NCBI RefSeq assembly: GCF_016801985.1
Contig: NZ_JAEVLS010000009.1
Span: 62,001 to 126,000, forward strand
Direction of reading: 5' to 3'
Source: Steroidobacter gossypii
GTDB taxonomy: Bacteria > Pseudomonadota > Gammaproteobacteria > Steroidobacterales > Steroidobacteraceae
Length of the DNA: 64,000 bases
Below the pieces are notes generated by a model. It was not told the origin of the DNA. It did not search any database and saw only the letters and a program-made list of their open reading frames with translations. Position numbers and translations under genes: made by a program. Positions 1 through 26,900 of the stretch are shown here, one piece after another. How positions within the stretch are numbered: position 1 is the stretch's first letter; every line of letters begins with the position of its first letter.

Positions 1-652
1 CATCGTCACTCCCAGGACTTCGGGGATTGAGAAGCTCGAAGAATTGGGCCGCGTGACGCGGTTTGCGCCGACTGAAGCCGATGCATTGGCGGGCTGGCCC
101 GGAGCGATCCAGTCCGTCGACGGTTCCCTCGTGAACTACGGGCGACTGGAGACCAGCGGAGTCGATGTTGATCTGTCGTATCGAACAGCGAGCAAACGGG
201 GACAACTACAGTTTGCGCTTTCCGCCACGTGGGTGGATGAATATGCCTCTCAGGACCTGGGTCCAGTGCAGCGATCAGATCGAGTGGGCATCGCGAGTTT
301 GGACGGCACGATTCCAGAATGGCGCTTCGTAGGGTCGCTGATATGGGAAGGAAAAGCTTCGGGTGCATCCACCACAGCGACCTTCACGCCGAGCTATTGG
401 GATGCTGACGCGAGCGGCGCTCTGAATCGGCGATTACCCTCACGTACGATCATCGATATGCAGGCCTGGGTAGAACCCGGCCGGCTCTACGAGTCAGAAG
501 CTCTCGATGGATTGAGGCTGACTGTCGGGGCACTGAACTTGTTGAATGAAGCTGTGGACTTCGCCAACGTGGGCGGATCGCTCGGCCACGATATATCGCA
601 AGGAGATCTAAGGCAGCGGTTCGCGTACTTGCGAATAACGAAGTCCTTCTAG
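1..652 (+). CDS. TonB-dependent receptor, C-terminal part (cut by window start)
   Basis: This is the last roughly 216 residues of an outer-membrane TonB-dependent receptor beta-barrel. The reading frame is open from base 2, so the start lies outside the window. It ends in YLRITKSF, the terminal-Phe barrel strand typical of outer-membrane proteins. It is a paralogue of the complete receptor at 18243-21305: both share TSGxD, SATWVxE, RxGxAS, STT, RRLPSR, a QA-containing strand and SQGxL-RFxYLRxTKxF in the same order. The gene converges on the lasso-type precursor at 715-861, with a strong hairpin between them. The ligand is unknown. By analogy with the second locus, uptake or sensing of the mature peptide is an inference. 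Confidence 0.9.
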   Translation, partial: IVTPRTSGIEKLEELGRVTRFAPTEADALAGWPGAIQSVDGSLVNYGRLETSGVDVDLSYRTASKRGQLQFALSATWVDEYASQDLGPVQRSDRVGIASLDGTIPEWRFVGSLIWEGKASGASTTATFTPSYWDADASGALNRRLPSRTIIDMQAWVEPGRLYESEALDGLRLTVGALNLLNEAVDFANVGGSLGHDISQGDLRQRFAYLRITKSF

Positions 653-714: not shown

Positions 715-861
715 TCAGATGCCGGCATAGGTCCACGAGACGTGGTTGTCCTTGATGTCATGGATCGGATGGGGTTGCTTCGTCTCGACCATCGCATCGC
801 CCAAATCGATCATTTTCACGCCGTCGTCCTCAACCTCTCTCGCCGCGATATTCTCATTCAT
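715..861 (-). CDS. Lasso-type RiPP precursor peptide 1 (48 aa)
   Basis: A 48-residue precursor peptide. The leader ends MIDLGDAMVETKQ, which matches the proteobacterial lasso leader pattern (DLG-x-A-x-x-ET-x, Thr at the second last leader position). By that rule the core is QPHPIHDIKDNHVSWTYAGI (20 aa), with Gln instead of Gly at position 1 and Asp at positions 7 and 10. The same leader end and the same Q-to-D spacing occur in precursor 2 at 24305-24439. The start is an ATG with TGAGG placed eight bases upstream. No cyclase or leader peptidase lies next to it, so processing would have to use the enzymes at 21310-23916 or genes left of the window. The family call rests on the leader match and on those genes; the product has not been shown. 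Confidence 0.8.
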   Translation of the reverse strand: MNENIAAREVEDDGVKMIDLGDAMVETKQPHPIHDIKDNHVSWTYAGI

Positions 862-1269: not shown

Positions 1270-2055
1270 CTACATCTGTCGGAACAGGTGCAGATAAGTC
1301 CTGCTCACCGGCAGCACTTCGCTGCGGCCTTTGAGATGAAGCTCCGCGGTTTCGTTCGCGCCGCGAGTGACGTGATCGATCGCGTTGAGGTTCACGACCA
1401 CGGAGCGATGAACCTGCGCGAAGCGTGAAGCATCCAACTGGCCGATGATGTCTTTGAGGGGCGTGCGGATCACGGCTTCGCGAGGCTGCTGTGCGTCGTC
1501 ACGCCAGGCGACAACGGTGTACTTCTCATCGGAGCGGAGGAAGTCGATGTCCTCGACGGGAATCAAGCGCACGGTTTGCCCGATGGAGGCGCGGACCCAG
1601 CGCAGAGGAGAGGACGAAGGAGCGGGGCGCAGGCGGGCCGCGAGTTGTTCCAGCAGCTCTTCGGTGTTGAGCGCTGGTTGAGCTGCGCTAAGGCGCTCTT
1701 GCAGCCGGGCCACGGTATCGGCGAGGCGTCGGGGCTCGACGGGTTTCACCAGATAGTCGAGCACGCCCTGTGAGAATGCCTGGACCGCGTATTGATCGTA
1801 GGCCGTGACGAACACCAGATGAGCGCGACGACCGATGTGCTGGGCGACCTCGATGCCCGTGACGCCAGGCATGTGCACGTCGAGAAAACAGATCGCCGGA
1901 TGCAGCGCTTCGAACTTATCGATGGCCTCGCGGCCATTGCGCGCTTGCGCGACCACGTGGAGCGCCGGCCATGCTTGCGCGAGCATGCGCTCCAGTGCGT
2001 CTCGCAGCAGCGGCTCGTCGTCGGCGATCAGGGCCGTAGGGCGCTGGGGGCTCAT
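1270..2055 (-). CDS. LytTR-family response regulator
   Basis: A 261-residue DNA-binding response regulator. The N-terminal receiver domain (about 1-125) has the acidic pocket ADDE, the phospho-acceptor Asp in CFLDVHMPG, a conserved Thr in FVTAYD and the Lys in YLVKPVE. A LytTR DNA-binding domain fills about 155-261 (RSDEKYTVV, RTPLKDI, FAQVHRSVVVNL, LPVSRTY). Its ATG overlaps the stop of the kinase gene (ATGA), so the two are translationally coupled. It presumably acts with that kinase; the target genes are not visible. Confidence 0.92.
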   Translation of the reverse strand: MSPQRPTALIADDEPLLRDALERMLAQAWPALHVVAQARNGREAIDKFEALHPAICFLDVHMPGVTGIEVAQHIGRRAHLVFVTAYDQYAVQAFSQGVLDYLVKPVEPRRLADTVARLQERLSAAQPALNTEELLEQLAARLRPAPSSSPLRWVRASIGQTVRLIPVEDIDFLRSDEKYTVVAWRDDAQQPREAVIRTPLKDIIGQLDASRFAQVHRSVVVNLNAIDHVTRGANETAELHLKGRSEVLPVSRTYLHLFRQM

Positions 2056-3131
2056 GCACGCCTCTCACGCGCGGGCAGATCGATCTCGGCGCACACGCCA
2101 TGCGGCTCGACTTCCATCAGCCGTAGCTGAGCATCGCCGCCAAAGTTCAGTTGCAGTCGCTCGCGCAAGGTCGACAGGCCCGTGCCCAAGCCTTGACTGG
2201 TGGCGTGCAGACCGACGCCGGTGTCTCGCACGCGAATCAAACAACGATCATTGCGGTGAACGACTTCGATATCGATGCGGCCGCCTTCCTCGCTCGGATC
2301 GATGCCATGCCTCACTGCATTCTCGACCAGCGTGAGCAGCGTCATCGGCGGACACTGCAGGTTCCGCGCTGTTTGATCGACGTTCAAAGTGAACTGCAGG
2401 CGATCCGGCATGCGCATCTGCATGAGCTCCAGGTACGCATGCACCAGCTCTAGTTCATCGCCGAAGGTGGTGGTCGACTCGTGCAGACGTGGCACGGCGG
2501 CGCGCAGGTAGGCAACGAGGCTGGCCAGCACCTTGGAAGCTTGCGGCGATCCTGCATCGACCAGCGCTTGGATATTGGCCAGCGTATTGAACAGGAAATG
2601 AGGCTCGACCTGCGCTTGCAGCAGTCGCATGCGAGCATCGAGCGCCTGGCGTTCGAGCTCGCTCTTCTCGAGCTCAAACGCAAGCGCCTGCTCGCGCGCG
2701 AACGTGTCGCGCTGTTTCAACATCGCGCCGACGGCGATCCAGGGCGCGAACAGCAAACCGGTGACGGTGAGCATCGCGTAGCCCATCGTTCGCTTTTCTT
2801 CTGTGGCGATCCGGGTGTTGCCACCGGTGGTGAGCCAGTATGCGAATAGTGCGCTGAACGGAATGATGGCGGCCACGCCGATGACTTGCAGCGCCGAGCG
2901 GGAGAGCCATCGCGGCAGCCGTCGAGGCCACTGCTCGAACAGGCCGAAGACCAGCATGGCCGAAAACCCGACCAGCACCGCGCGTGACACGACGATGATG
3001 GTGGCCGTCTCACTGAGCAGGCCGAGGAACAGTCCAAACAGCACCGAGACGGTGAGCGTGAAGCGCAAGCGCCGCCACCCCAGCATCAACGCCAGGCCGT
3101 GCGGCTTCGAGGGCAATGCGGCGGCGGTCAT
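2052..3131 (-). CDS. LytS/YehU-type membrane sensor histidine kinase
   Basis: A membrane sensor kinase of the His_kinase (PF06580) family. The first roughly 140 residues hold several hydrophobic segments. A linker predicted as coiled coil (EQALAFELEKSELERQALD) leads to the phospho-acceptor motif VEPHFLFNTL, and a C-terminal HATPase domain has the N-box VENAVRHG and glycine boxes DTGVGL and GTGLSTLRERL. The chosen start is the ATG at 3131; an upstream non-ATG start (3182) would add 17 residues that look unlike a signal or membrane segment. The signal sensed is unknown. Confidence 0.88.
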   Translation of the reverse strand: MTAAALPSKPHGLALMLGWRRLRFTLTVSVLFGLFLGLLSETATIIVVSRAVLVGFSAMLVFGLFEQWPRRLPRWLSRSALQVIGVAAIIPFSALFAYWLTTGGNTRIATEEKRTMGYAMLTVTGLLFAPWIAVGAMLKQRDTFAREQALAFELEKSELERQALDARMRLLQAQVEPHFLFNTLANIQALVDAGSPQASKVLASLVAYLRAAVPRLHESTTTFGDELELVHAYLELMQMRMPDRLQFTLNVDQTARNLQCPPMTLLTLVENAVRHGIDPSEEGGRIDIEVVHRNDRCLIRVRDTGVGLHATSQGLGTGLSTLRERLQLNFGGDAQLRLMEVEPHGVCAEIDLPARERRA

Positions 3132-3329
3132 GAGTGGACTATAGACGAATGCCGCGAGGCTGCCTGCGCGGCGGCCGACCAACGGACTCGCCCGGCCGTC
3201 TTTCGTCCGCCTGAAACGTGCCTGGGTGGCGATTCGCCGCGGTTCGTCGCATGCTTATCTCGTGCATGTGTGGGCTCGTCATAGTAGCGCCCGGTCCTTC
3301 AGGGCGCAGACATACAGGGAGTCCGAACC

Positions 3330-13217: not shown

Positions 13218-13835
13218 GTGATCGATCGTCATAAGCACCTGGGCAGAGGGGATCGCGCGACGGCGACAGTGTCGCAGCTCGAGAATGCCGGGCAGGACGT
13301 CGAGCCCGCGCCGATGATGGATACACATGCGCGCAATGGCCGCGTCAGTGTGTGGTTCGGGCGCTGGCGCAAACCGATTCGCAGCTGGTTCTCGAGCAGG
13401 GCGTCGGTGCCGCGCGCCGAAGTCGACGATCTGGCGCAGGAGGTGTTCCTGCGCCTGCTGCGTTATAGCGACGATGTGGCGGTGGAGAATCCCCAGGGCT
13501 ACCTGTTCAAGATCGCCGCCAACGTCGCCAACGAGTGGCGAGACCGCTCCCGCGTGCGTCAACCGCACGATCGCAGCTGGCTCGATGAGCTTCAGATCGA
13601 TCCGTCCGATCAGCCGGACAACGCGATGTTTCAAAGCCGCGTCAGCAATCATTTGCAAAGCGCGGTCGATCAATTGCCGCAGCGACAGCGCGAAGTGCTG
13701 TTACTGCACGTCAACGAGGGTCTGACTTACAAGCAGATCGCCGATCGGCTCGGGGTCACCTACCGGATCGTCTTGCGAGACCTGACGCGTGCCTATGCCT
13801 CATTGCGCATGCAGTTGAAGGGCCAGGACCTCTAG
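13218..13835 (+). CDS. FecI-like ECF sigma factor 1
   Basis: A 205-residue extracytoplasmic-function sigma factor. Region 2 shows VDDLAQEVFLRLLRYSDD and NPQGYLFKIAANVANEWRDR; region 4 shows DQLPQRQREVLLLHVNEGLTYKQIADRLGVTYRIVLRDLTRAY. It is a close paralogue of 16246-16872 along its whole length, including the first residues MIDR. The GTG start has AGGGAC upstream and is supported by that match. The next gene is a FecR anti-sigma, so it is expected to respond to an outer-membrane receptor signal. Confidence 0.92.
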   Translation: MIDRHKHLGRGDRATATVSQLENAGQDVEPAPMMDTHARNGRVSVWFGRWRKPIRSWFSSRASVPRAEVDDLAQEVFLRLLRYSDDVAVENPQGYLFKIAANVANEWRDRSRVRQPHDRSWLDELQIDPSDQPDNAMFQSRVSNHLQSAVDQLPQRQREVLLLHVNEGLTYKQIADRLGVTYRIVLRDLTRAYASLRMQLKGQDL

Positions 13836-15042: not shown

Positions 15043-16047
15043 ATGAACGCGACCCCTCCGGGAACGGTGACGACGCAGGCCATCGAATGGCATCAGCGTC
15101 TGAAACAGGGTGAGATGGATGCGGCCACGCGCGCTCGATTCCGAGCATGGATGCGCTCGCCGGACCACGTCAAAGAGCTCGCGCATATTTGTTTGATCGA
15201 CGCCTCGCTCGGCGGGATCAAGCGCGAAGGCCGGGCCTTGCCCAAGAATGTCATCGACTTCGGATCGTTTGCGCCGATGGCGCGCCCGCGCACAGCACCC
15301 TCCGCTCCACATCGGGCGCGCTTGAAGTCAAAGGTTGCGGCCGCCGCCAGCGTGCTGCTCGCGGTTGCGGTCGGCTCGTTGGCGGCCCTGCTGTCCGGCG
15401 ATTCAGTCATCGTGACGCGCGAGGGTAGTTGGGACAAACGATTGCTGAATGACGGCACAGTGGTCTACGCGGGCCCGCGCACCAAGCTGCGTTTGCACTT
15501 TGACGAGCGCACTCGCGCGGTCGAGCTATTACGAGGCGAGGCGCTGTTCGAAGTGGCCAGGCAGCCCGGGCGGCCATTCGTCGTATCGACCAATGCGGGG
15601 CGAGTGCAGGCGCTGGGCTCGGCGTTCGCGGCCGCTGAAGCGGGCGATCAGGTGGTGGTCACGGTGATGAAAGGCAAGGTCGCGGTCACCGGCCATCACG
15701 GTGCGCAACCGATGGTGCCGCTCGGCGCGAACCAGCAGGTCGTGCTCTCGTCACGACGCGTGGGGGATCCTGTCACCGTGAACGCCGAAAGAGAACTCAA
15801 GTGGGTTCGTAACTGGTACGAGTACGATGGCGAGCAGGTCGGCGAAATCATCGCCGAGCTGAATCAGCGCCACGGCACCCAGATCGTCGTGGACGATCCG
15901 CAAGTGATGCCGTTGCGCATGAGCTCGCTGGCCTTCAGGCCGAGTCGGCCGGAAGAGTTCGTCGCCCAAATCAATCGCTGGTACGCCGATTATCCTCACA
16001 AGGCCGGCCGCCGCCGCGACGCCGTGCTGCACCTGCAGCGCTCCTAG
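15043..16047 (+). CDS. FecR-like anti-sigma factor 2
   Basis: A 334-residue FecR-family protein. The N-terminal sigma-binding region is EWHQRLKQGEMDAATRARFRAWM, and one membrane segment lies at about 98-120 (VAAAASVLLAVAVGSLAALLSG). The periplasmic FecR domain has DGTVVYAGPRTKLRL, RGEALFEVARQPGRPFVV and GRVQALGSAFA. It follows anti-sigma 1 in the same direction after 121 bases, with no sigma gene of its own in front and no receptor behind, which is unusual. Confidence 0.88.
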   Translation: MNATPPGTVTTQAIEWHQRLKQGEMDAATRARFRAWMRSPDHVKELAHICLIDASLGGIKREGRALPKNVIDFGSFAPMARPRTAPSAPHRARLKSKVAAAASVLLAVAVGSLAALLSGDSVIVTREGSWDKRLLNDGTVVYAGPRTKLRLHFDERTRAVELLRGEALFEVARQPGRPFVVSTNAGRVQALGSAFAAAEAGDQVVVTVMKGKVAVTGHHGAQPMVPLGANQQVVLSSRRVGDPVTVNAERELKWVRNWYEYDGEQVGEIIAELNQRHGTQIVVDDPQVMPLRMSSLAFRPSRPEEFVAQINRWYADYPHKAGRRRDAVLHLQRS

Positions 16048-16245: not shown

Positions 16246-16872
16246 TTGATCGATCGGCAGAAGCAGTCGCCAGACACCCATCGTTGGCGTTCATCCACGG
16301 AGGATGAACAGGGCGAGCAGGGGGTTTGTGGGCCTCCGGAAGCCGCCGCGCGCGCTCCACGACCCAATCGCGACGGCCGGCTGATCGAGTGGTTCGGCAA
16401 GTGGCGCAAGCCGATCCGCAGCTGGCTGCGCAATCGCGCCTCGGTGCCGCCGGGCGATATCGACGATCTGGCGCAGGAAGTGTTCCTGCGCCTGCTGCGC
16501 TATAGCGACGACATCGCCGTCGACAATCCGCAAGGTTATTTGTTCAGAATCGCCGCCAATGTCGCCAACGAGTGGCGCGAGCGCTCCAGGGTACGCAAGC
16601 CGCACGACGACAGCTGGCTGGAGGAGTTGCAGATCGAAGCCGGGGACGAACCGGAGAACGCTTTTGCCAAGACGCGCGCCAACGAATATGTGCAGGCCGC
16701 GGTCGACCGCCTGCCGCCGCGGCAGCGCGAGGTTCTGTTGTTACATGTCAATGAGGGCCTGACTTACAAGCAGATCGCTCAGCAACGGGGGCTGACCTAT
16801 CGCATTGTGTTGCGAGACCTCACACGTGCCTACAGCGCATTGCGCATGCAATTGCGGCTGGAGGACCTGTGA
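16246..16872 (+). CDS. FecI-like ECF sigma factor 2
   Basis: A 208-residue ECF sigma factor and near twin of 13218-13835: IDDLAQEVFLRLLRYSDD, NPQGYLFRIAANVANEWRER, and a region 4 with DRLPPRQREVLLLHVNEGLTYKQIAQQ. The TTG start is chosen because MIDRQKQ aligns with MIDRHKH of the twin, though no clear ribosome site precedes it. Its stop overlaps the FecR gene start (GTGA), so the pair is translationally coupled. It most likely drives the receptor at 18243. Confidence 0.92.
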   Translation: MIDRQKQSPDTHRWRSSTEDEQGEQGVCGPPEAAARAPRPNRDGRLIEWFGKWRKPIRSWLRNRASVPPGDIDDLAQEVFLRLLRYSDDIAVDNPQGYLFRIAANVANEWRERSRVRKPHDDSWLEELQIEAGDEPENAFAKTRANEYVQAAVDRLPPRQREVLLLHVNEGLTYKQIAQQRGLTYRIVLRDLTRAYSALRMQLRLEDL

Positions 16873-17993
16873 CCACTTCCAGGGAAGACGAGGACGAGGG
16901 CATGAATGGATTTCTGCACGAGGGCGACCCACAACGGCGCGCCACGCACGAGTTGAGCAATGAAGCGGCCGAATGGTTCGTATTGCTGCGTGATGATCGG
17001 TTGGGCCTGCGCCACCGCCAGCGCAACGTCCGCTGGCTGAAACAATCGCCGGACCACATCGCGGAATTGCTCCGCATCCAGCAGGTCTACAAGGTGCTGC
17101 GCGCGGCCAAGCTGGAGGACCGGGAGCCACGCACTTCGCGATTGGACGACGAACCCGAATCGAATGTGATCGAGCTGGCGCGGCGCCTGCCGCCGACGCC
17201 GCCGGAGCTGCCCCGATTGCGGCCGCGCCGTCGGCCGTGGCGCGCGGTCGCGGCAGTGGGTTGCCTCGCGATCTGCATGCTCCTGGCGTTTGTGGTCAAG
17301 GGCGCGTGGCTGGATCGAACCATCGAGACCGAGTTGGGCGAATGGCGCACGGCCACGCTGAAAGACGGCACGCAGGTGCGTCTGGGGCCCGGCTCGCTGT
17401 TGCGCGTGGCGTTCAACGATGAGCGCCGGATAGTCCGCCTGGTACGCGGCGAGGCGATGTTCGATGTCGCCGAGGGCTCGCGTCCATTCTTCGTTCAGTC
17501 CGAGATGATCGGCGTGCTGGCGACGGGCACCCAGTTCCGTGTATCGCGCCGAGGCGGCGAGGACGTGGTCGCGGTCACCGAGGGCAGCGTCTCGATCTAT
17601 CGCGATGATGGTGAGCCGGTGCTGGGCTCGGTCGTCCGGCAAGCTCGGGCCAACACCGAAGTGCCGCTAGCGGCCGGAGAGCAGGTGTCGGTCACGAGCT
17701 CGCACGCGGTCGTAAAGCAAAAGATCAATGTCGATTACGAGCAGGCGTGGGCCGATGGCTGGCTGGTGTACGAGGACAAGACCATTGCCGAAGTCGCCAG
17801 CGAGTTCAATCGTCGCAACCGGACCAAGATCGTGGTGGCGGAGCCCGCCATCGCCGAGCGCCAGCTGGCCTTCTTCCGGGGCATCGCCACCGACCCTGAA
17901 TCGTTTGTCGCCGCCATCTCTCGCAGCTCGGATATCGCCGTGGTCCGCGGCGGGCCGAATGTGCTGCGGATTGAACTCAGTCCACAGAGCTGA
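16869..17993 (+). CDS. FecR-like anti-sigma factor 3
   Basis: A 374-residue FecR-family regulator. It has a cytoplasmic sigma-binding part (NEAAEWFVLLRDDRLGLRHRQRNVRWL), a membrane segment at about 125-145 (AVAAVGCLAICMLLAFVV) and a FecR domain (DGTQVRLGPGSLLRV, RGEAMFDVAEGSRPFFV, IGVLATGTQFRV). The GTG start overlaps the sigma 2 stop codon. It is next to the STN-domain receptor, so the surface-signalling set sigma 2, FecR 3, receptor is complete. Confidence 0.92.
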   Translation: MTTSREDEDEGMNGFLHEGDPQRRATHELSNEAAEWFVLLRDDRLGLRHRQRNVRWLKQSPDHIAELLRIQQVYKVLRAAKLEDREPRTSRLDDEPESNVIELARRLPPTPPELPRLRPRRRPWRAVAAVGCLAICMLLAFVVKGAWLDRTIETELGEWRTATLKDGTQVRLGPGSLLRVAFNDERRIVRLVRGEAMFDVAEGSRPFFVQSEMIGVLATGTQFRVSRRGGEDVVAVTEGSVSIYRDDGEPVLGSVVRQARANTEVPLAAGEQVSVTSSHAVVKQKINVDYEQAWADGWLVYEDKTIAEVASEFNRRNRTKIVVAEPAIAERQLAFFRGIATDPESFVAAISRSSDIAVVRGGPNVLRIELSPQS

Positions 17994-18242: not shown

Positions 18243-21200
18243 TTGCTGGGGAAGATGGTCGCGAAACAGGTCATCGCCGGAGTCGTGGCGGCTGCATTCA
18301 TGGGCGGTCCGTTGCCCTTGGCTGCGCAAACCACGCTCGCGCCAAGCCAGGGGGTGACTGCGAGGAGCGACCGGGACGAGCCGCCGTCCCTGCACTACTA
18401 CACCCTGGACATTCCGCGCCTTACCATCATCGAGGCGCTGAAAGAGTTCACCACCCAGACCGGCCTGCAGATCAGCTTCTGGCCCGATGCGCAGACCGAC
18501 CAGAACATGCTGGTCGGGCCATTGCGCGGCAGGTTCACCGCGGAGGTGGCTTTGACTCGGCTGCTGGCCTCGAGCGGGCTGGCGTTCAGGAGAACCAACG
18601 ATCGCTCCCTGGTGGTGATGGCGCCCTCGCTGCTCGGGCTGCCCCGCAATGGATCATCGGCGCCAGATCAGGAGCGAAGCCGCTTGGCGGAGGGGCAGCC
18701 GCGCCTGCGTGCAGTCACCCGACCGCCGGAGCCGGAAATCCGTGCGCAAGGAGCAGCCGGTTCGAGCAGAACCGAGCGAATGTTCTCGCGTGAGTCCATC
18801 GACGAAGTTATCGTCACCGGCACTCGCATGGAGCGCAGTGGCGAAGGGCCGGCGCCGGTGCAGGTGTTCACTCGCCGGGAGATCGAAGAGCTCGGCGCGG
18901 CCTCGATTCCCGATGTCTTGCGCTATACGCCGCAGCAGCCGTTCACGCGGCCCGAGTATTACTACCAGAATGGCGGGCAGTACTCGCAGATGCGCGGCAT
19001 CGGCATCGACACCACGCTGGTGCTCATCAACGGCCGGCGGGTGGTGCCGACCTCCAACAGCCTGACGTTGAATGCGTTCGATCTGAACAGCATCCCGCTC
19101 GCCGCGGTGGAGAAGATCGAAGTGCTGTCCGACTCGGCCTCGGCCATCTACGGCGCCGACGCGATGGGCGGCGTGATCAACATCGTGCTGAGAAAAGAGA
19201 TTCCTCAACCGGTGCTCGACGTTCAGTACGGCAGCGCGAGCGGAGGGGGCGATCTGTTGCGCGGCTCGCTGAGCGTCGGCTATGCCACGGAACGTTTCAA
19301 AGCGTCGCTCATCGCCGATTATCACCAGCGCGACTTTCTGTTCGGCGTCGAGCGCGACCGCTGGCGCAATCAGGATTTCAGCCGTTACGGCGGCATCGAT
19401 TATCGAACGCCGGGCGGCGCGCCCGCCAACGTGCGCTCGAGCACCGGCCAGAATCTGCCGGGCCTGCCCAGTTCGTTTGCGACCGTGCCGGAGGGCAGTC
19501 GGGGCGTCGGACTCACGCCGGATGACTTCATTCCGACGGCCGGCATGCGCAATCACACAAGCACGCTGTCCACGCTCGCCATCGTGCCCGAATCTCGCCA
19601 GCGCAACCTCGCGCTGTTTGCAGAGTATGAGCTTGCGCCCGAGCTGAGCGCTTTCGCAGAGGTGTTGCACACCCACCGTGATGTCCTGAATCAGGATGAG
19701 CTTCCCTCGGTGGTGGGCGCGCGCGTGCCGGCGAACAATCCGTTCAACCCATTTGGCCAGGAAGTGCTCGTGGACTTCGCGCTCGGGGGCATCGGTCCGC
19801 AGCGGACTTCGGAACATTTGCAGACGACGCGCGGCGCCGCAGGCCTGCGTGGCGCGCTGAGTTCCGGCTGGCAGTGGGAGATCGCGGCTGTGGCGAGCAC
19901 TGAAACCGACGATGTCGTGATCCCCAATCGCGTGAGCGATGAGCGGGTCAGCGCGGCGCTGGCGCAAACAGATCCCGCCCGCGCGCTCAACCCCTTCGTC
20001 GACGGGCCTGGCGGCGGCCCGGAGTTGCTGGCGTCGCTCATGGATCCGTCTGTCGATCATCACTTCTCGCGCGGCCGGCAGGTATCTGCCTTCATGCGCG
20101 GCGACCTGTGGGAGCTGCCGGCCGGGCCGCTGCAAGCGGTGGTCGGCAGCGAGTGGCGCGATGAGCGAATGGTTTACGACGGCGACACCGAGTCGCTGGC
20201 GGACGGGCGCGATGTGAAAGCGCTGTTCACCGAGTTGCGCGTGCCGCTGCTCGGGTCGGCGCCCGACGCCAATGAGGACAGGTTGACGATGACGCTGGCC
20301 GCGCGGCTGGATGACTACAGCGATTTTGGCAGCACCCTGAACCCACAGATCGGCTTGATGTGGCGGACGAGCCAGGAGCTGTTGTTGCGCGGCTCGTACG
20401 GCACGAGCTTCCGTCCGCCTTCGCTGTTCGAGCTGCATTCGCCGCGCATCTCGGTGTCCAACATGACCGTGGTGGATGCCGCTCGCAATGACGCCAGAAG
20501 CAGCGTCACCATCGTTGGCGGCGGCAATCCCGATCTGCGGCCCATTGAAGCGAGATCGATGACGGCGGGCCTGGTGCTCACGCCGAGCGCCGTGCCCGAT
20601 CTGCGCCTGCTGGCCAACTACTGGAAGATCGGCGTCGACAATCGCGTGACGTACCTGCAGTTCAATTCGCTGCTTGCCAACGAGCACGTGTTCAGCGATC
20701 GAGTGCTGCGCGATGAGCCGACGCCGGCCGACATCGCCGCGGGCATCCCCGGGCGGCTGTTGCAGCTGGATATCTCGCGTATGAACTTCGGTCGGCTCGA
20801 CACGAGCGGCATCGACTTCGAGGTGAGCTATGACATCGCGACCCGCTGGGGCGATTTCACGCCGCGTCTGTCGGCGACCTGGGTGAACGAGTTCGACTCC
20901 GTCGACGAGCCGCTCGGCAACGCCGTGAATCGCGTGGGCGTCGCGAGCGTCCTGGGCTCGGTGCCGCGCTGGCGTGTGATCGGCGGCCTTGGCTGGAAGC
21001 GCAATGGACTTTCCGCCTCGACCACGATCGATTGGTTGCCCGGCTACATGGATGCGAACCGCGAGGGGCTCACCACGCGGCGACTGCCCTCGCGCATCCT
21101 GGTGGATTTCCAGGCGAGCCTCACGGTGGACGAGATGTTCGGTCCGAGCCCGCTATGGAACGATCTGAAGCTGCAGGCCGGCGTGAGGAACGCGTTCGAT

Positions 21201-21305
21201 GAGTTGCCGCCGTTTGCGGAGATCGGCTTTTCCAGCGGCTACGATTCCTCGCAGGGGGAACTGATCGGCCGCTTCGGCTACCTGAGATTGACCAAGGGCT
21301 TCTGA
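18243..21305 (+). CDS. STN-domain TonB-dependent receptor of the lasso locus
   Basis: A 1020-residue outer-membrane transducer. A signal peptide (QVIAGVVAAAFMGGPLPLAAQ) is followed by an STN signalling domain (LTIIEALKEFTTQTGLQISF to LLASSGLAFRRTNDRSLVVM), which contacts FecR. The TonB box region is DEVIVTGTR. The plug has TRREIEELGAASIPDVLRY, LINGRRVVP and SASAIYGADAMGGVINIVLR, and the barrel ends in YLRLTKGF. The start is TTG 18243 or ATG 18255; neither has an ideal ribosome site. It ends four bases from the convergent cyclase gene. Lasso clusters of the astexin type also pair a TonB receptor with FecI/FecR, so peptide uptake or sensing is the likely role. Confidence 0.93.
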   Translation: MLGKMVAKQVIAGVVAAAFMGGPLPLAAQTTLAPSQGVTARSDRDEPPSLHYYTLDIPRLTIIEALKEFTTQTGLQISFWPDAQTDQNMLVGPLRGRFTAEVALTRLLASSGLAFRRTNDRSLVVMAPSLLGLPRNGSSAPDQERSRLAEGQPRLRAVTRPPEPEIRAQGAAGSSRTERMFSRESIDEVIVTGTRMERSGEGPAPVQVFTRREIEELGAASIPDVLRYTPQQPFTRPEYYYQNGGQYSQMRGIGIDTTLVLINGRRVVPTSNSLTLNAFDLNSIPLAAVEKIEVLSDSASAIYGADAMGGVINIVLRKEIPQPVLDVQYGSASGGGDLLRGSLSVGYATERFKASLIADYHQRDFLFGVERDRWRNQDFSRYGGIDYRTPGGAPANVRSSTGQNLPGLPSSFATVPEGSRGVGLTPDDFIPTAGMRNHTSTLSTLAIVPESRQRNLALFAEYELAPELSAFAEVLHTHRDVLNQDELPSVVGARVPANNPFNPFGQEVLVDFALGGIGPQRTSEHLQTTRGAAGLRGALSSGWQWEIAAVASTETDDVVIPNRVSDERVSAALAQTDPARALNPFVDGPGGGPELLASLMDPSVDHHFSRGRQVSAFMRGDLWELPAGPLQAVVGSEWRDERMVYDGDTESLADGRDVKALFTELRVPLLGSAPDANEDRLTMTLAARLDDYSDFGSTLNPQIGLMWRTSQELLLRGSYGTSFRPPSLFELHSPRISVSNMTVVDAARNDARSSVTIVGGGNPDLRPIEARSMTAGLVLTPSAVPDLRLLANYWKIGVDNRVTYLQFNSLLANEHVFSDRVLRDEPTPADIAAGIPGRLLQLDISRMNFGRLDTSGIDFEVSYDIATRWGDFTPRLSATWVNEFDSVDEPLGNAVNRVGVASVLGSVPRWRVIGGLGWKRNGLSASTTIDWLPGYMDANREGLTTRRLPSRILVDFQASLTVDEMFGPSPLWNDLKLQAGVRNAFDELPPFAEIGFSSGYDSSQGELIGRFGYLRLTKGF

Positions 21306-21309
21306 GTTT

Positions 21310-23157
21310 TCACGCCGCCGCCCGCTGCTGCGCGCCCTGCATCCAATGCCGCGCCCACAGCTCCGTATCCAGATGTCGGAACACCTCGCCCAGATAAACC
21401 GTGTTCTTGGTGGGGCCGGCCGCGAGCACCTCCTCCAGCAACGCGCGCTTCAGCAGACCTTGGCTGGCGAGCACGCCTTCCAGCAATGTTTCTGTCAGGA
21501 AGGCGCGTTGCCGTTCGAAGATCTGGTCGTGAAAGCCTGGCGCCCGATCTTTCCACAGGCGTCGCAGAATCGGCTCGGGCACTTCCGCGGCGAACGCTTT
21601 GCGCGCGAGGCCCCGATCGCGGCCCTGATTGAAATGAACATAGATGGGAATCCGCAGCAGCAGTTCGGTCACGGGCTGCGTGTACAGCGGTGAAACGATC
21701 TCCGGGACGTCTGCGTCGGCCGGCACGGCCACGTTGTAGTAGTCGGATGCACTCGTCAGCGTGCCGATGCGCCGGATCTTGTCCCATGGCGTGCGCTGCT
21801 GGCCATGGAACCAGGGGTGCGACACGTGCATGCCGCGATAGTCCTGCTTGATGTGGTCGCTGACCAGCTGACTCGCCTCGAGAATGCGTTCGCGAGGAAT
21901 ACCGCCTTCATTGGTGAAATTGCGACGGACGGCGGTGGTCAGCACGCTCCAGGTGGATTTCTGGGTCAGAAGCGCGACCTGCGCGGCGAGTTGAAACAAA
22001 CGCGGTGTGACGCCGTGATTGCGCAGGTACTCGGGCACGGCATGGCTGATCGAGTCGGCGCAGAAGCCCGAATCGCCGCCGTCGCCGCTGAAGATGCCGG
22101 AGGCGCCGGTGCGCGCGGCAAGATCCTGTTCGATGATGGTTCGCTGGAACAACTGCAGCAGCGGCATGGGCTCGACCGAGACCGGCATGCGCGACCCAAT
22201 GCTCAGATCGAGCTCCAGCGGCGACAGAGGATATTCGGTGTGCTCGCATCCGGCGTGTTGTGCGGCGAGCCGTGCCCAGGGGCGCTCGTCGGAGCGGCCG
22301 TTCACGCTGTGATAGGTGTAGGCGCTGAAACGCCCGGTCGGAGCATCCTTCAAGCAGCCGGCGATGATGGAAGAGTCGAGCCCCCCGGACAGACGCAGTA
22401 ACAACGAACGATGTCGGCTGGCCATGCTGTGCACCGTGGACTTCACGACGCTATGCATGGCTTGCGCCGCCTGCGCGGGATCTTCGATCAGATCGCCCGC
22501 GCCATCGAATGCTATCGGGCTCCACCAATAGTGACTGGCGCTGCTCCCATCGCGTTGAAATTGGATGCACTCACCACCGCGCACCGGAGTGACTTCATTG
22601 AGCGGCGACAGCTCATGCAAGCTGCTGCTGGCCATCAGGTGCGCATGCAGGAACGCTTCGTTGATCGTGAAGCGTTGCAACCGCAGGTCCAGGCAATCGC
22701 CGACGCGTGAAAAGAAGATGCTCACGCCATGAAAAGCGGTGCGGAGACAGGGCAGAGGGCCGGTCGGGTCTTTCAAGACCCACCGGGTCTCATCCGCGCT
22801 GTCGCGGCCGAAGGCCACGTAGTTGCCCCAGGCGTGATCGATGAGCCATCGACCGCGGCTCGTGACAAACGAGTGGCGCTCGGCTGGCCCGAAAAGCATC
22901 GGCTCGTCTAGCGCCGGTGCTGACAGATCCCGATTGCGCGTGAACAACGTTCCGATGAGCGCACCAGCGCCGTCGGCGAGGCGGTGCACTTGTGATGAGT
23001 CGCTACGGGCGCCCGCGCAGAACACCTGCATTCCTGGCGTGTCGAGCTCTCGTGCCCACGCCGGGCCGAGCTGCGCAACGCGCGCACCGATCAGTCGCGC
23101 CGTTTCTTGTTGTTGCGGGTTTGTCGGGTCCCACACCAGCCCCAGGTATCGCAACAT
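21310..23157 (-). CDS. Lasso peptide cyclase (asparagine synthetase B-like)
   Basis: A 615-residue asparagine-synthetase homologue of the lasso macrolactam synthetase type. It would adenylate the side chain of an Asp or Glu in the core and close it onto the N-terminal amine. The ATP pyrophosphatase motif is LRLSGGLDSSIIAG and a second site is SGDGGDSGFCAD. The N-terminal glutaminase-like half has no Cys at position 2, so it is not a true glutamine-dependent enzyme. The ATG at 23157 has AAGGAG seven bases upstream, better than the GTG at 23163. It lies 21 bases after the peptidase gene and is surely co-transcribed with it. Confidence 0.92.
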   Translation of the reverse strand: MLRYLGLVWDPTNPQQQETARLIGARVAQLGPAWARELDTPGMQVFCAGARSDSSQVHRLADGAGALIGTLFTRNRDLSAPALDEPMLFGPAERHSFVTSRGRWLIDHAWGNYVAFGRDSADETRWVLKDPTGPLPCLRTAFHGVSIFFSRVGDCLDLRLQRFTINEAFLHAHLMASSSLHELSPLNEVTPVRGGECIQFQRDGSSASHYWWSPIAFDGAGDLIEDPAQAAQAMHSVVKSTVHSMASRHRSLLLRLSGGLDSSIIAGCLKDAPTGRFSAYTYHSVNGRSDERPWARLAAQHAGCEHTEYPLSPLELDLSIGSRMPVSVEPMPLLQLFQRTIIEQDLAARTGASGIFSGDGGDSGFCADSISHAVPEYLRNHGVTPRLFQLAAQVALLTQKSTWSVLTTAVRRNFTNEGGIPRERILEASQLVSDHIKQDYRGMHVSHPWFHGQQRTPWDKIRRIGTLTSASDYYNVAVPADADVPEIVSPLYTQPVTELLLRIPIYVHFNQGRDRGLARKAFAAEVPEPILRRLWKDRAPGFHDQIFERQRAFLTETLLEGVLASQGLLKRALLEEVLAAGPTKNTVYLGEVFRHLDTELWARHWMQGAQQRAAA

Positions 23158-23178
23158 CGCCACGCTCCTTCGCGCGGT

Positions 23179-23916
23179 TCAGATCGCCAGAATGGGGGTG
23201 TACTCGCAAACCTGTTCAGGATTGGCGTCGAGCAACAGCGTTCCCTGCTGAACCCAGCTGTGCGCGGCCCAGGGTTTGGTGCGCACGCCGATCACCCACG
23301 TGGGATACACGCTGTGGCTGGCCAGGAATCTGACCAGCGCCAGTGCATGAAACAAACATTGGTCGCGCGCGGCGAACGTATGCGGGCGCAGCCGCCGGAA
23401 GATGCCGACCAGCTCGATGGCGCGCTCGGCATCGAACGGCGCGCCAGCTGCGTTCTTCTGCTGGCCGATCTCTTCAGCCACCACATATAAGGTGCGCGAT
23501 CGCACCGAGCGACGGGCCCAGCTGCAAGCGCGCATGAATTCGACGAGATGGCGCCAGCGGATCGACGCCGTGCGCTCGACCTCGTGCCCCACGCTGGTCA
23601 GCAGACTGTCGAGATCCACTTGCGCGGGTGTGAACACCGCAGGCTCGGGCGCGCTGTTGCTGAGAAGGCCGGCGTCTACCAGCTTGTCTGCAATGCGCAC
23701 CGCGTCTTCGAGCGGCAGAGGCTCGGCGTCCGCGGCGAAGGCGGGGGCTGCGGTCGCAAAGTTCTGCCAGTTGCCGGCGAGAGAGCGCAGCACGGCGGTT
23801 TCTTTGCGGCCGACGCCAAAATATCGATTGCGACGCAGGTCGAGCAGCACGGTGCCCGTTGCTGTCGAGCACGCCCGCACGTGCGCCGGCAGCCAGTACG
23901 CTTTTTCGGTGTGCAT
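23179..23916 (-). CDS. Fused RRE and leader peptidase (lasso B1-B2 protein)
   Basis: A 245-residue protein joining the two lasso B functions. Residues about 1-85 resemble a PqqD-like RiPP recognition element (YWLPAHVRACSTATGTVLLD, LRRNRYFGVG) that would bind the leader. The C-terminal part is a transglutaminase-like B2 protease with the Cys in DQCLFHALAL, the His in AAHSWV and the Asp in LLDANPE. It should remove the leader before cyclisation. The ATG at 23916 is preferred over upstream TTG 23958, which would read into the repeat array. Fusion of B1 and B2 is common in Proteobacteria. Confidence 0.92.
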   Translation of the reverse strand: MHTEKAYWLPAHVRACSTATGTVLLDLRRNRYFGVGRKETAVLRSLAGNWQNFATAAPAFAADAEPLPLEDAVRIADKLVDAGLLSNSAPEPAVFTPAQVDLDSLLTSVGHEVERTASIRWRHLVEFMRACSWARRSVRSRTLYVVAEEIGQQKNAAGAPFDAERAIELVGIFRRLRPHTFAARDQCLFHALALVRFLASHSVYPTWVIGVRTKPWAAHSWVQQGTLLLDANPEQVCEYTPILAI

Positions 23917-23948
23917 GGCCAGGACTGCCCGAGAGATCGCCCCAGAAT

Positions 23949-24170
23949 ATCGACCCAAACATCGAGCCCGATTCGCGCCGAAGCATCGACCCAGATCATC
24001 GATTCAAATCATCGACCCAAATCATCGACCGGATCATCGAATCAGATTATCGACTCAGATTATCGACCCATATCATCGACCCGGATCATCGACTCAAATT
24101 ATCGCCCGGATCATCGACCCAACTCATCGACCCAACTCATCGACCGGTGTCATTCATGCCAGATCATCGA
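23949..24170. repeat. Tandem array of degenerate 13-bp repeats in the lasso operon
   Basis: The pentamer ATCGA (once ATCGC) recurs at 23949, 23961, 23985, 23998, 24011, 24024, 24036, 24049, 24062, 24075, 24088, 24101, 24113, 24126, 24139 and 24166. The spacing is 13, sometimes 12, bases across thirteen consecutive units. The typical unit is GATCATCGACCCA. The array lies between the precursor 2 stop and the start of the peptidase gene, inside the presumed transcript. Since 13 is not a multiple of three, the array does not encode a regular protein repeat. Confidence 0.85.
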
Positions 24171-24304: not shown

Positions 24305-24439
24305 CTATCCGTTCTCTCTCTCCCCCAGCAGAAACACCGAGTCGTAGTACTGGGGCCACAAACCCCACTGCTTGGTTTCGACGGTCGCATCACCGAGATC
24401 GAGCACCTCGATCTCCATTTCGTCCTGAACTTCGGTCAT
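24305..24439 (-). CDS. Lasso-type RiPP precursor peptide 2 (44 aa)
   Basis: A 44-residue precursor upstream of, and in the same direction as, the peptidase and cyclase genes. The leader ends VLDLGDATVETKQ, the same as in precursor 1 except for two residues. If cut after ETK, the core is 21 residues and begins QWGLWPQYYD, so Gln is at position 1 and Asp at 10. If cut after Gln it starts with Trp and the Asp is at 9, which would give a canonical nine-residue ring. The core then continues with a hydrophobic stretch and a Gly-Glu-Arg-Glu tail. GAGGGAA precedes the ATG by seven bases. The neighbouring enzymes make the lasso assignment strong; cut site and ring size are open. Confidence 0.88.
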   Translation of the reverse strand: MTEVQDEMEIEVLDLGDATVETKQWGLWPQYYDSVFLLGERENG

Positions 24440-24813: not shown

Positions 24814-25047
24814 ATGACCTTGATCAAAGGTCGTCCCCTCGCCGCGCGGTGGGTTCGCCCGGAGCTGGCGCCGGCGCTGGGGAATATCGAGGACGAGCAC
24901 GGGTGCCTGCAGTCCGCAGGTGACAGCGAAACGTTTCGTTTGTCCGTGCAGTTCGCGCAGGCGCATGGCGTGCAAAGCACGGTTCGGCGAGGCGAGATCA
25001 CGACTCTGAGCAGTAGCGCGCTACTGTCCGGGGCCAGTTCGCGGTGA
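24814..25047 (+). CDS. Small protein coupled to the ABC transporter gene (77 aa)
   Basis: A 77-residue protein of unknown family, starting MTLIKGRPLAARWVRPELAP. It has one Cys (EHGCLQ), no membrane segment and a Ser/Leu-rich end. AGGGAGG lies seven bases before the ATG. Its stop codon overlaps the GTG of the ABC transporter gene (GTGA), so translation of the two is coupled, which supports it as a real gene. It may be a partner of the transporter; no lasso-type leader is visible. Confidence 0.55.
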   Translation: MTLIKGRPLAARWVRPELAPALGNIEDEHGCLQSAGDSETFRLSVQFAQAHGVQSTVRRGEITTLSSSALLSGASSR

Positions 25048-26900
25048 GTCGGACAGATGCATCGGTCGGCGCCATCGGCACATCGGAAGCTGTCCGCCAG
25101 CCTCGGCAAACCCTGCGCGAGGCTTTGCAGCTGCTCTGGTCGGCCGCCGACGGCTTTGCGAAGCGACGATTGCTGGTGGCGCTTGCCCTTGTTGCGGGCG
25201 GCTCCCTGCTGGCGGCCGCCACGCCGATCGCGCTCAAGCTGCTCGTAGATTCGCTGGCGCAGGAGGGCACGGGGGCCGGCGGCGCTGCGCTCGCAACGGC
25301 GCTGGTCTTTCTGGGGCTGTACGTGCTCGGCATGTATCTCGGTCGCGTTGTCTCCGAAGCGCGCCTCTTCTTACATTTGCGAGCCGAGCAACGCGTGCAG
25401 CGGCAGGTGGGGCGACGCCTGTTCGAACATCTGGTGCGCCTGCCGCTGCGCTTCCATCTGGAGAAGAAGACCGGCGCGATCGGCGAGACCGTGACGCAGG
25501 GCATGCGCGGTTATCAGCTGCTGCTGCAACACTTCATCCATACCTTTCTGCCGGTGATCATCGAGTTCGTCGCGGTGGCGCTGGTGCTCGCGCACTTCGG
25601 CCATGCGGAGTACATCAGCATCCTGGCCGTGGCGTCGATTGCCTATGTATATGCGTTTCAGCGCGGCGCCATTGCGATTCAAGAGCCCTCGCGTCTGGCC
25701 TCGCGCGCGCATATCGACGCGAACGCCGTGCTCACCGACAGTCTGATCAATCACGAGACGGTCAAGTATTTCGACGCCGAGCCAGTGGTGTGCAATCGTT
25801 ATGACCTGGCGCTCGGGCGCACGGAACGATCATGGGCACGCTTCTTCGCGCTGCGAGCGAAGAACAGCATTCTGGTGCACACGATCTTCGGCCTCTCGCT
25901 GGCGGTCACATCCTACTTCGCGCTGGTGGACGTCTTTCGAGGCGCCATGACGGTCGGCGACTTCGTGCTGTTGAACGCCTATGTCATCCGCCTGGTGCAA
26001 CCTTTGGAGATGATCGGACTGGCGGTGCGGGACACGGCGCAAGGGGTGGCGTTTCTGGACAGCCTGCTCGCATTGTTTCGTGAACAGACCGAGATCGAAG
26101 CGGTCAACGCACGCTCTGCCGCCGCGCCCCGTGGCGAGCTGCAATTCGACCGCGTCTGCTTCTCATATCACGAAGCGCGCGCCGTACTGCGAAATGTGAG
26201 TTTCGCCGTGCCGGCGGGCAAGACCGTCGCCGTGGTGGGCGCCAGTGGCTCGGGCAAATCGTCGCTGATCCGCTTGCTGTTTCGCCTGTACGAGCCGAAT
26301 GCCGGCGCCATCCTGCTCGATGGCACGCCGATTCGCGACCTGTCGTTGTCGGCGTTGCGCCAGGCCATCGCCGTCGTGCCGCAGGATACCGTGATGTTTC
26401 ACGACACCATCGCCAACAACATCGGCTTCGGCCGCGCCGATGCGACGTTGCAGGACATCCAGGAGGCGGCGCGGATCGCCAATCTCCACGAGTTCATCCT
26501 CACTTTGCCCGATGGCTACGACACCATGGTTGGCGAGCGTGGCCTGAAGCTCTCCGGCGGTGAGCGTCAGCGCGTCGCCATTGCGCGCGCCGCGCTCAAG
26601 AAGCCGAAGATTTTTGTCTTCGATGAGGCAACTTCATCGCTGGACACTCAGACCGAGCGGGAGATCCTGCGCAACTTGATCGAGGTGTCGGCGCACAGCA
26701 CGACCCTGGTCATCGCGCACCGCTTGTCGACCATCGTGCACGCCGACGAAATCATCGTGCTGGATCGGGGTGCGGTTCGCGAGCGTGGCACGCACGCTCA
26801 GTTGTGCGCTCGAAATGGCGCCTACGCCGGGCTATGGCAGGCTCAACAAGGGGGACTGTCTCAGCGGGAGGAACTGCCGATATCGCCTGCTCGGAAGTAG
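25044..26900 (+). CDS. Atm1-type ABC half-transporter (permease-ATPase)
   Basis: A 618-residue half-transporter with six membrane segments in about 45-330 and an ATPase domain after about 350: Walker A VGASGSGKSSL, signature LSGGERQRVAIARA, Walker B IFVFDEATSSLD, switch His in VIAHRLS. LINHETVKYFDAE is the hallmark of the Atm1/ABCB7/ABCB6 group, which exports glutathione-linked compounds or metals. It runs divergently from precursor 2. It could export the lasso peptide, as McjD-like exporters do, but the Atm1 signature argues for a separate role. A strong hairpin follows. Confidence 0.9.
   Translation: MSRTDASVGAIGTSEAVRQPRQTLREALQLLWSAADGFAKRRLLVALALVAGGSLLAAATPIALKLLVDSLAQEGTGAGGAALATALVFLGLYVLGMYLGRVVSEARLFLHLRAEQRVQRQVGRRLFEHLVRLPLRFHLEKKTGAIGETVTQGMRGYQLLLQHFIHTFLPVIIEFVAVALVLAHFGHAEYISILAVASIAYVYAFQRGAIAIQEPSRLASRAHIDANAVLTDSLINHETVKYFDAEPVVCNRYDLALGRTERSWARFFALRAKNSILVHTIFGLSLAVTSYFALVDVFRGAMTVGDFVLLNAYVIRLVQPLEMIGLAVRDTAQGVAFLDSLLALFREQTEIEAVNARSAAAPRGELQFDRVCFSYHEARAVLRNVSFAVPAGKTVAVVGASGSGKSSLIRLLFRLYEPNAGAILLDGTPIRDLSLSALRQAIAVVPQDTVMFHDTIANNIGFGRADATLQDIQEAARIANLHEFILTLPDGYDTMVGERGLKLSGGERQRVAIARAALKKPKIFVFDEATSSLDTQTEREILRNLIEVSAHSTTLVIAHRLSTIVHADEIIVLDRGAVRERGTHAQLCARNGAYAGLWQAQQGGLSQREELPISPARK

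Follow-up and report, generated by a model that had tools for sequence, protein, structure and literature searches.

Lasso peptide precursors with conserved Gln1 and Asp10 in Steroidobacter gossypii and its relatives, and the ten-residue ring that they predict

The natural lasso rings that have been structurally characterised contain seven, eight or nine residues only (June 2026 review, PMC13352647), and reviews place the acceptor Asp or Glu at core position 7-9 (PMC9266682). A ten-residue ring can nevertheless be made: the enzymes of fusilassin/fuscanodin (Thermobifida fusca), which differ from those described here by their actinobacterial split B1/B2 and by a native ring of nine residues, tolerate engineered rings of 7-10 residues, and in other systems a change of ring size by one residue usually lowers production (PMC13352647). 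The caulosegnins of Caulobacter segnis illustrate that one enzyme set can close two ring sizes, 8 and 9, but all three of their precursors lie in one cluster and none has a ten-residue ring (PMC13352647). Metanodin (BGC 89, from a Steroidobacterales metagenome) has an MS/MS-supported Asn1 behind a Thr at position -2; its authors predicted Gln1 for a related cluster, and its precursor had been missed by antiSMASH (PMC12670498).

We describe here a lasso system in a stretch of 64,000 nucleotides (hereafter, the window) from the 7.1 Mb genome of Steroidobacter gossypii. It shares with metanodin the bacterial order, a first residue with a carboxamide side chain (Asn1 there), a Thr at -2 and an Asp acceptor; it differs in that metanodin has a nine-residue ring (inferred from nine reported ring-opened forms), an isopeptidase gene and a precursor within the cluster. 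The leaders of the two window precursors also resemble those of the subterisin and benenodin families up to the T-K junction, where these weak matches stop, and the scores of both remain below the family cut-offs (22.1 and 17.6 bits against a gathering cut-off of 27 for PF24178, subterisin; 16.4 and 18.7 bits against 33 for NF033522, benenodin). The known products of these two families begin with Gly. Among the relatives of the window precursors introduced below, 15 of 26 are matched by NF033522 at E 0.01 or better.

The main cluster and a distant precursor

The genes are listed in Table 1. The candidate LasB scores 61.4 bits against NCBIfam lasso_biosyn_B2 (NF033537, cut-off 33) and combines the RRE/PqqD domain (a match under the cut-off of that domain) with the transglutaminase-like Cys-His-Asp of the class, its candidate Cys201-His233-Asp244 being invariant in an alignment of 11 relatives. 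LasC is asparagine-synthetase-like and carries the expected SGGLDS motif. A search of the PDB gave no relative for LasB and only a marginal one for LasC. Orthologues of LasB that are 82-85% identical occur in Peristeroidobacter agariperforans, P. soli, Steroidobacter agaridevorans and one Steroidobacter MAG.

Table 1. Features of the window; leaders and cores are divided at the predicted cut before Gln.
Feature	Position	Strand	Basis or remark
TonB-dependent receptor, 3' end, convergent with precursor 1	1-652	+	L018:13903-16653
Precursor 1 (second precursor), 48 aa	715-861	-	syntenic orthologues L200, L203, L206
Precursor 1 core	718-777	-	QPHPIHDIKDNHVSWTYAGI
Precursor 1 Asp10 codon	748-750	-	
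Precursor 1 Gln1 codon	775-777	-	
Precursor 1 leader	778-861	-	MNENIAAREVEDDGVKMIDLGDAMVETK
ECF-type sigma factor (FecI-like), upstream of receptor	16246-16872	+	Pfam Sigma70_r2, r4_2
FecR-like anti-sigma/transducer	16869-17993	+	Pfam FecR, 67.6 bits
TonB-dependent receptor, convergent with the A-B-C genes	18243-21305	+	Pfam TonB_dep_Rec, Plug; STN weak, below cut-off
LasC, asparagine-synthetase-like macrolactam synthetase	21310-23163	-	Pfam Asn_synthase, 86 bits; SGGLDS motif
LasB, PqqD-like RRE fused to B2 leader peptidase	23179-23958	-	probable ATG start 23916
Lasso precursor A, 44 aa	24305-24439	-	ORF; profile family of 26 relatives
Precursor A core	24308-24370	-	QWGLWPQYYDSVFLLGERENG
Precursor A Asp10 codon	24341-24343	-	
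Precursor A Gln1 codon	24368-24370	-	
Precursor A leader	24371-24439	-	MTEVQDEMEIEVLDLGDATVETK; ends in DLGDATVETK
ABC transporter, probable LasD-like exporter	25044-26900	+	Pfam ABC_membrane, ABC_tran

The receptor paired with precursor 1 has 916 aa at full length, and its own ECF sigma and FecR genes precede it to the left of the window, so that FecI and FecR genes accompany the receptor of both window precursors. We considered whether precursor 1 had lasso genes of its own to the left of the window; none is there, and no LasB lies nearby.

Some further features of the neighbourhood may be recorded. Most of the intergenic gap between precursor A and LasB is occupied by a 13-bp tandem repeat (CATCGACCCAGAT, 12.6 copies, at 23984-24145). 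Upstream of the ECF sigma and FecR genes of the cluster lies another such pair (13218-13835 and 15043-16047), with no receptor directly adjoining, and precursor 1 is adjoined by a LytTR response regulator and histidine kinase pair (1270-3182). The only match to the window ABC transporter near the cluster in close relatives is a half-length ORF of P. soli (L051:9248-10138; 296 aa, 62% identical).

Conservation of the cores and predicted position of the cut

Both window precursors read DLGDAxVETK-Q-x8-D around the leader-core junction, as the preliminary description of this DNA had stated, and a third precursor of the same genome, located outside the window, has equal spacing (QHWISQEYPD). A profile search of the 14 genomes of the genus yielded 26 precursors with the same leader, and scans based on LasB added one from a Candidatus Accumulibacter MAG, for a total of 27; these relatives come from one genus and a few outliers, and most of the genomes are drafts. 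The precursor profile found no match outside the genus in 217 genomes of the family and 369 drawn from the class. The Thr is invariant in 26 of 26 aligned precursors and is the penultimate leader residue, as in the lasso class generally, given Gln as core residue 1.

This first residue is Gln in 22 of the 27 cores, Glu in three, Cys in one and Gly in one. With the residue two places past the Thr taken as position 1, Asp is at position 10 in 20 of 27, at 9 in five and at 8 in two. The Asp10 spacing is not due to chance: in 20,000 shuffles of the core residues, the column richest in acids reached 5.9 sequences on average and 12 at most, against the 20 observed, and, as the 27 cores include syntenic orthologues, a test with one core per group (which covers this for the Asp10 groups only) gave 10 of 10 with Asp10, against a shuffle mean of 2.7 and a maximum of 7. 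Asp10 is the sole acidic residue in seven cores, for example QIPIIPLFFDNLSAFGLLPF. Other common features are an aromatic residue at 13 and a Gly at 16. The ratio of nonsynonymous to synonymous change across syntenic orthologues indicates strong constraint on the leader (0.22-0.23) and weaker constraint on the core (0.51-0.56; for precursor A, with five syntenic orthologues, 0.22 and 0.56, respectively), and Gln1/Glu1 and Asp10 are retained among these orthologues despite the weaker constraint on the core.

It had been left open whether the leader is cut before this Gln, giving a ten-residue ring, or after it. The comparative evidence supports the former well, which places Thr at -2. No site of the 27 cores varies less than position 1 (0.95 bits), whereas position 2 (3.38 bits) ranks with the most variable ones and is Pro in several of the cores. 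Only under the rule of a Thr at -2 do relatives that share this leader come out with ordinary rings: Povalibacter uvarum (G-KVGPER-D) would then be Gly1-Asp8, and the Accumulibacter MAG (Q-PPLVGF-D) Gln1-Asp8. Gln1-Asp9 is likewise read in one MAG, as well as in another genus of the family, where the leader is more distant. Some thirty further lasso loci of the bacterial family obey the same rule; most have Gly1 and an Asp or Glu at 7-9, and starts on Ala, Ser, Asn, Asp, His or Lys are scattered among them. The rule is also obeyed by metanodin, whose Asn1 speaks for a cut before Gln and against one after it, since Thr at -2 is retained there.

One may argue that the LasB of this clade instead cuts after Gln or Glu, with Thr at -3, which would bring the Asp10 and Asp9 cores to nine- and eight-residue rings, within the known natural range, with a variable first residue. 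We think that this is unlikely. The first residue would be almost random and, as the preliminary description had remarked, would be Pro in precursor 1 (we find the same in several relatives), the Accumulibacter and Povalibacter relatives would become Pro1-Asp7 and Lys1-Asp7, and the conservation of Gln would have to be put down to a protease preference at a site that elsewhere is mostly K, R, Q or M. With Pro as the first residue, the nucleophile would be a secondary amine.

In an unrelated LasB lineage (L184:1673-1918), a precursor with the sequence ETK-DQSPFTAPLD would be Asp1-Asp10 under the Thr(-2) rule, possibly an independent ten-residue ring, or Gln1-Asp9 if the cut were one residue later.

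Predicted ring size and ring closure

With the cut placed before Gln, the products are most likely Gln1-Asp10 macrolactams, with a predicted ring of 31 atoms (27 of the backbone plus N, CA, CB and CG of Asp), to be compared with 29 for a nine-residue Glu ring. This is one residue above the largest natural lasso ring of known structure. The predicted acceptor of precursor A stands outside the range of positions 7-9 given for the class; however, this range is empirical rather than a mechanistic requirement, and since an engineered ten-residue ring exists, we treat precursor A as a variant of the lasso class and not as excluded from it. A search of the open literature, which takes in only a minority of subscription papers and no bioRxiv preprints, gave no natural lasso ring of ten residues. 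The predicted ring is therefore new as far as this literature shows, and it is chemically plausible. The two genes had previously been presented as departing from lasso rules in any reading; this view holds for the predicted ring, which is without known natural precedent, and less so for the start, given the Asn1 of metanodin and the Gln1 predicted by its authors for a related cluster.

A product closed at an earlier acid, after the same cut before Gln, would have a seven-residue ring of a known size, and precursor 1 does have an Asp7 and three relatives (the QHW group) a Glu7. This reading is inapplicable to precursor A, in which Asp10 is the only acidic residue ahead of position 17, and in the syntenic orthologues of precursor 1 Asp7 is not conserved, being replaced by Val or Ile, whereas the later Asp is retained; we therefore consider closure at Asp7 or Glu7 very unlikely. 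We find it highly improbable, too, that the products are unthreaded branched-cyclic peptides or linear pyroglutamyl peptides. A free N-terminal Gln can become pyroglutamate, which would block ring closure, and 25 of the 27 cores begin with a pyroglutamate-forming Gln or Glu. Yet pyroglutamate would block the very amine needed by LasC, LasB and LasC are complete with their motifs conserved, and members with Cys1 and Gly1 share the same leader.

The preliminary description had named homologues that share the leader but lack a conserved Asp at this spacing as evidence against it. This is partly the case: the Asp stands at 10 in 20 cores, but at 8 or 9 in seven relatives with this leader, and ring size is therefore not set by the leader. 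Within the group syntenic to precursor 1, Asp10 is found in two genomes and Asp9 in two, and the LasB of these genomes is more than 80% identical to that of the window, which suggests that the enzymes probably accept both substrates, much as the caulosegnin enzymes do for rings of 8 and 9 (PMC13352647), and that a strict ten-residue requirement is unlikely. The relatives with Asp8 or Asp9 behind this leader, the Asp7 of precursor 1 and the precursor loci distant from LasB were not part of the preliminary description.

All Gln1/Glu1 loci, together with the Gly1 locus of Povalibacter, form one clade in the LasC tree (support 100/100) and one in the LasB tree (99/97). Ring sizes 8 and 9 appear on several branches; Asp10 is found in the subclade of the window and at a few further loci. 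An S9-type (isopeptidase-like) gene lies beside LasC at Asp8/Asp9 loci; none was seen at the Asp10 loci examined. Asp8, Asp9 and Asp10 substrates within a single enzyme clade would make a comparison series for the determinants of ring size.

Scattered precursors and a proposed pathway

No LasB lies near 15 of the precursors in the genus, precursor 1 among them, and every one of these 15 converges with a gene for a TonB receptor. The receptor is immediately convergent in 13 of the 15 (the reading frame of the receptor at L201 appears split); in the other two, a LasC without LasB lies between precursor and receptor, and the loci syntenic to these two in two other genomes are without this LasC. 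A genome may contain up to five such LasB-distant precursors, and the well-assembled genomes have one LasB of the clade. Conversely, one MAG has a LasB-LasC pair without an adjoining precursor. Processing in trans is the simplest reading of this arrangement, and a likely one.

We propose that the PqqD-like domain of LasB binds the DLGDAxxET[KR] leader and that LasB cuts two residues past the conserved Thr, which would free Gln1; LasC would then activate Asp10 by adenylating its side chain, and attack on it by the alpha-amine of Gln1 would give a ten-residue ring of 31 atoms that encloses the C-terminal tail. The LasB and LasC of the window would probably also process, in trans, precursor 1 and the distant third precursor of this genome, and the ABC transporter of the main cluster would export the mature peptides. 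Every precursor has a TonB receptor gene as its partner, and the two window precursors have FecI and FecR genes too, so these peptides probably serve as signals or ligands that the producer itself recognises. The sequences themselves show the genes for precursors, enzymes and receptors, the conservation of Gln1 and Asp10 and the scattered layout; the cut site, the ring and its threading, processing in trans, export and the part played in signalling are inferred from them. For this explanation taken as a whole (Gln1-Asp10 lassos made by LasB and LasC in cis and in trans, exported, and acting as receptor-paired signals) we would give a probability of roughly 0.78.

A broader proposal, to which we give even odds, is that the genus has a natural class of ten-residue lassos starting with Gln or Glu, produced in trans by one LasB/LasC pair from scattered precursors, each with a private TonB receptor (several with FecI-FecR). 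If this were true, one enzyme set would supply several private peptide-receptor channels, the natural range of ring sizes would extend from 7-9 to 10, and Gln and Glu would be added to the natural first residues. We found no report of such a shared-enzyme, many-ligand arrangement in the literature searched. Mining rules that expect Gly1 and an Asp or Glu at 7-9 inside the cluster could miss precursors of this kind.

A few observations on individual loci can be added. A Steroidobacter MAG has a LasB-LasC pair (L054:3415-6039) with no precursor or receptor nearby, and on another contig a precursor without LasB (L209). The relatives of precursor 1 (L200, L203 and L206) contain an adjacent Cys-Cys, and the cores at L204, L207 and L210 have Cys at 11 and 21 (for example QLSSLPVYPDCYFVWGAKFGC), a pattern that suggests a disulfide behind the ring.
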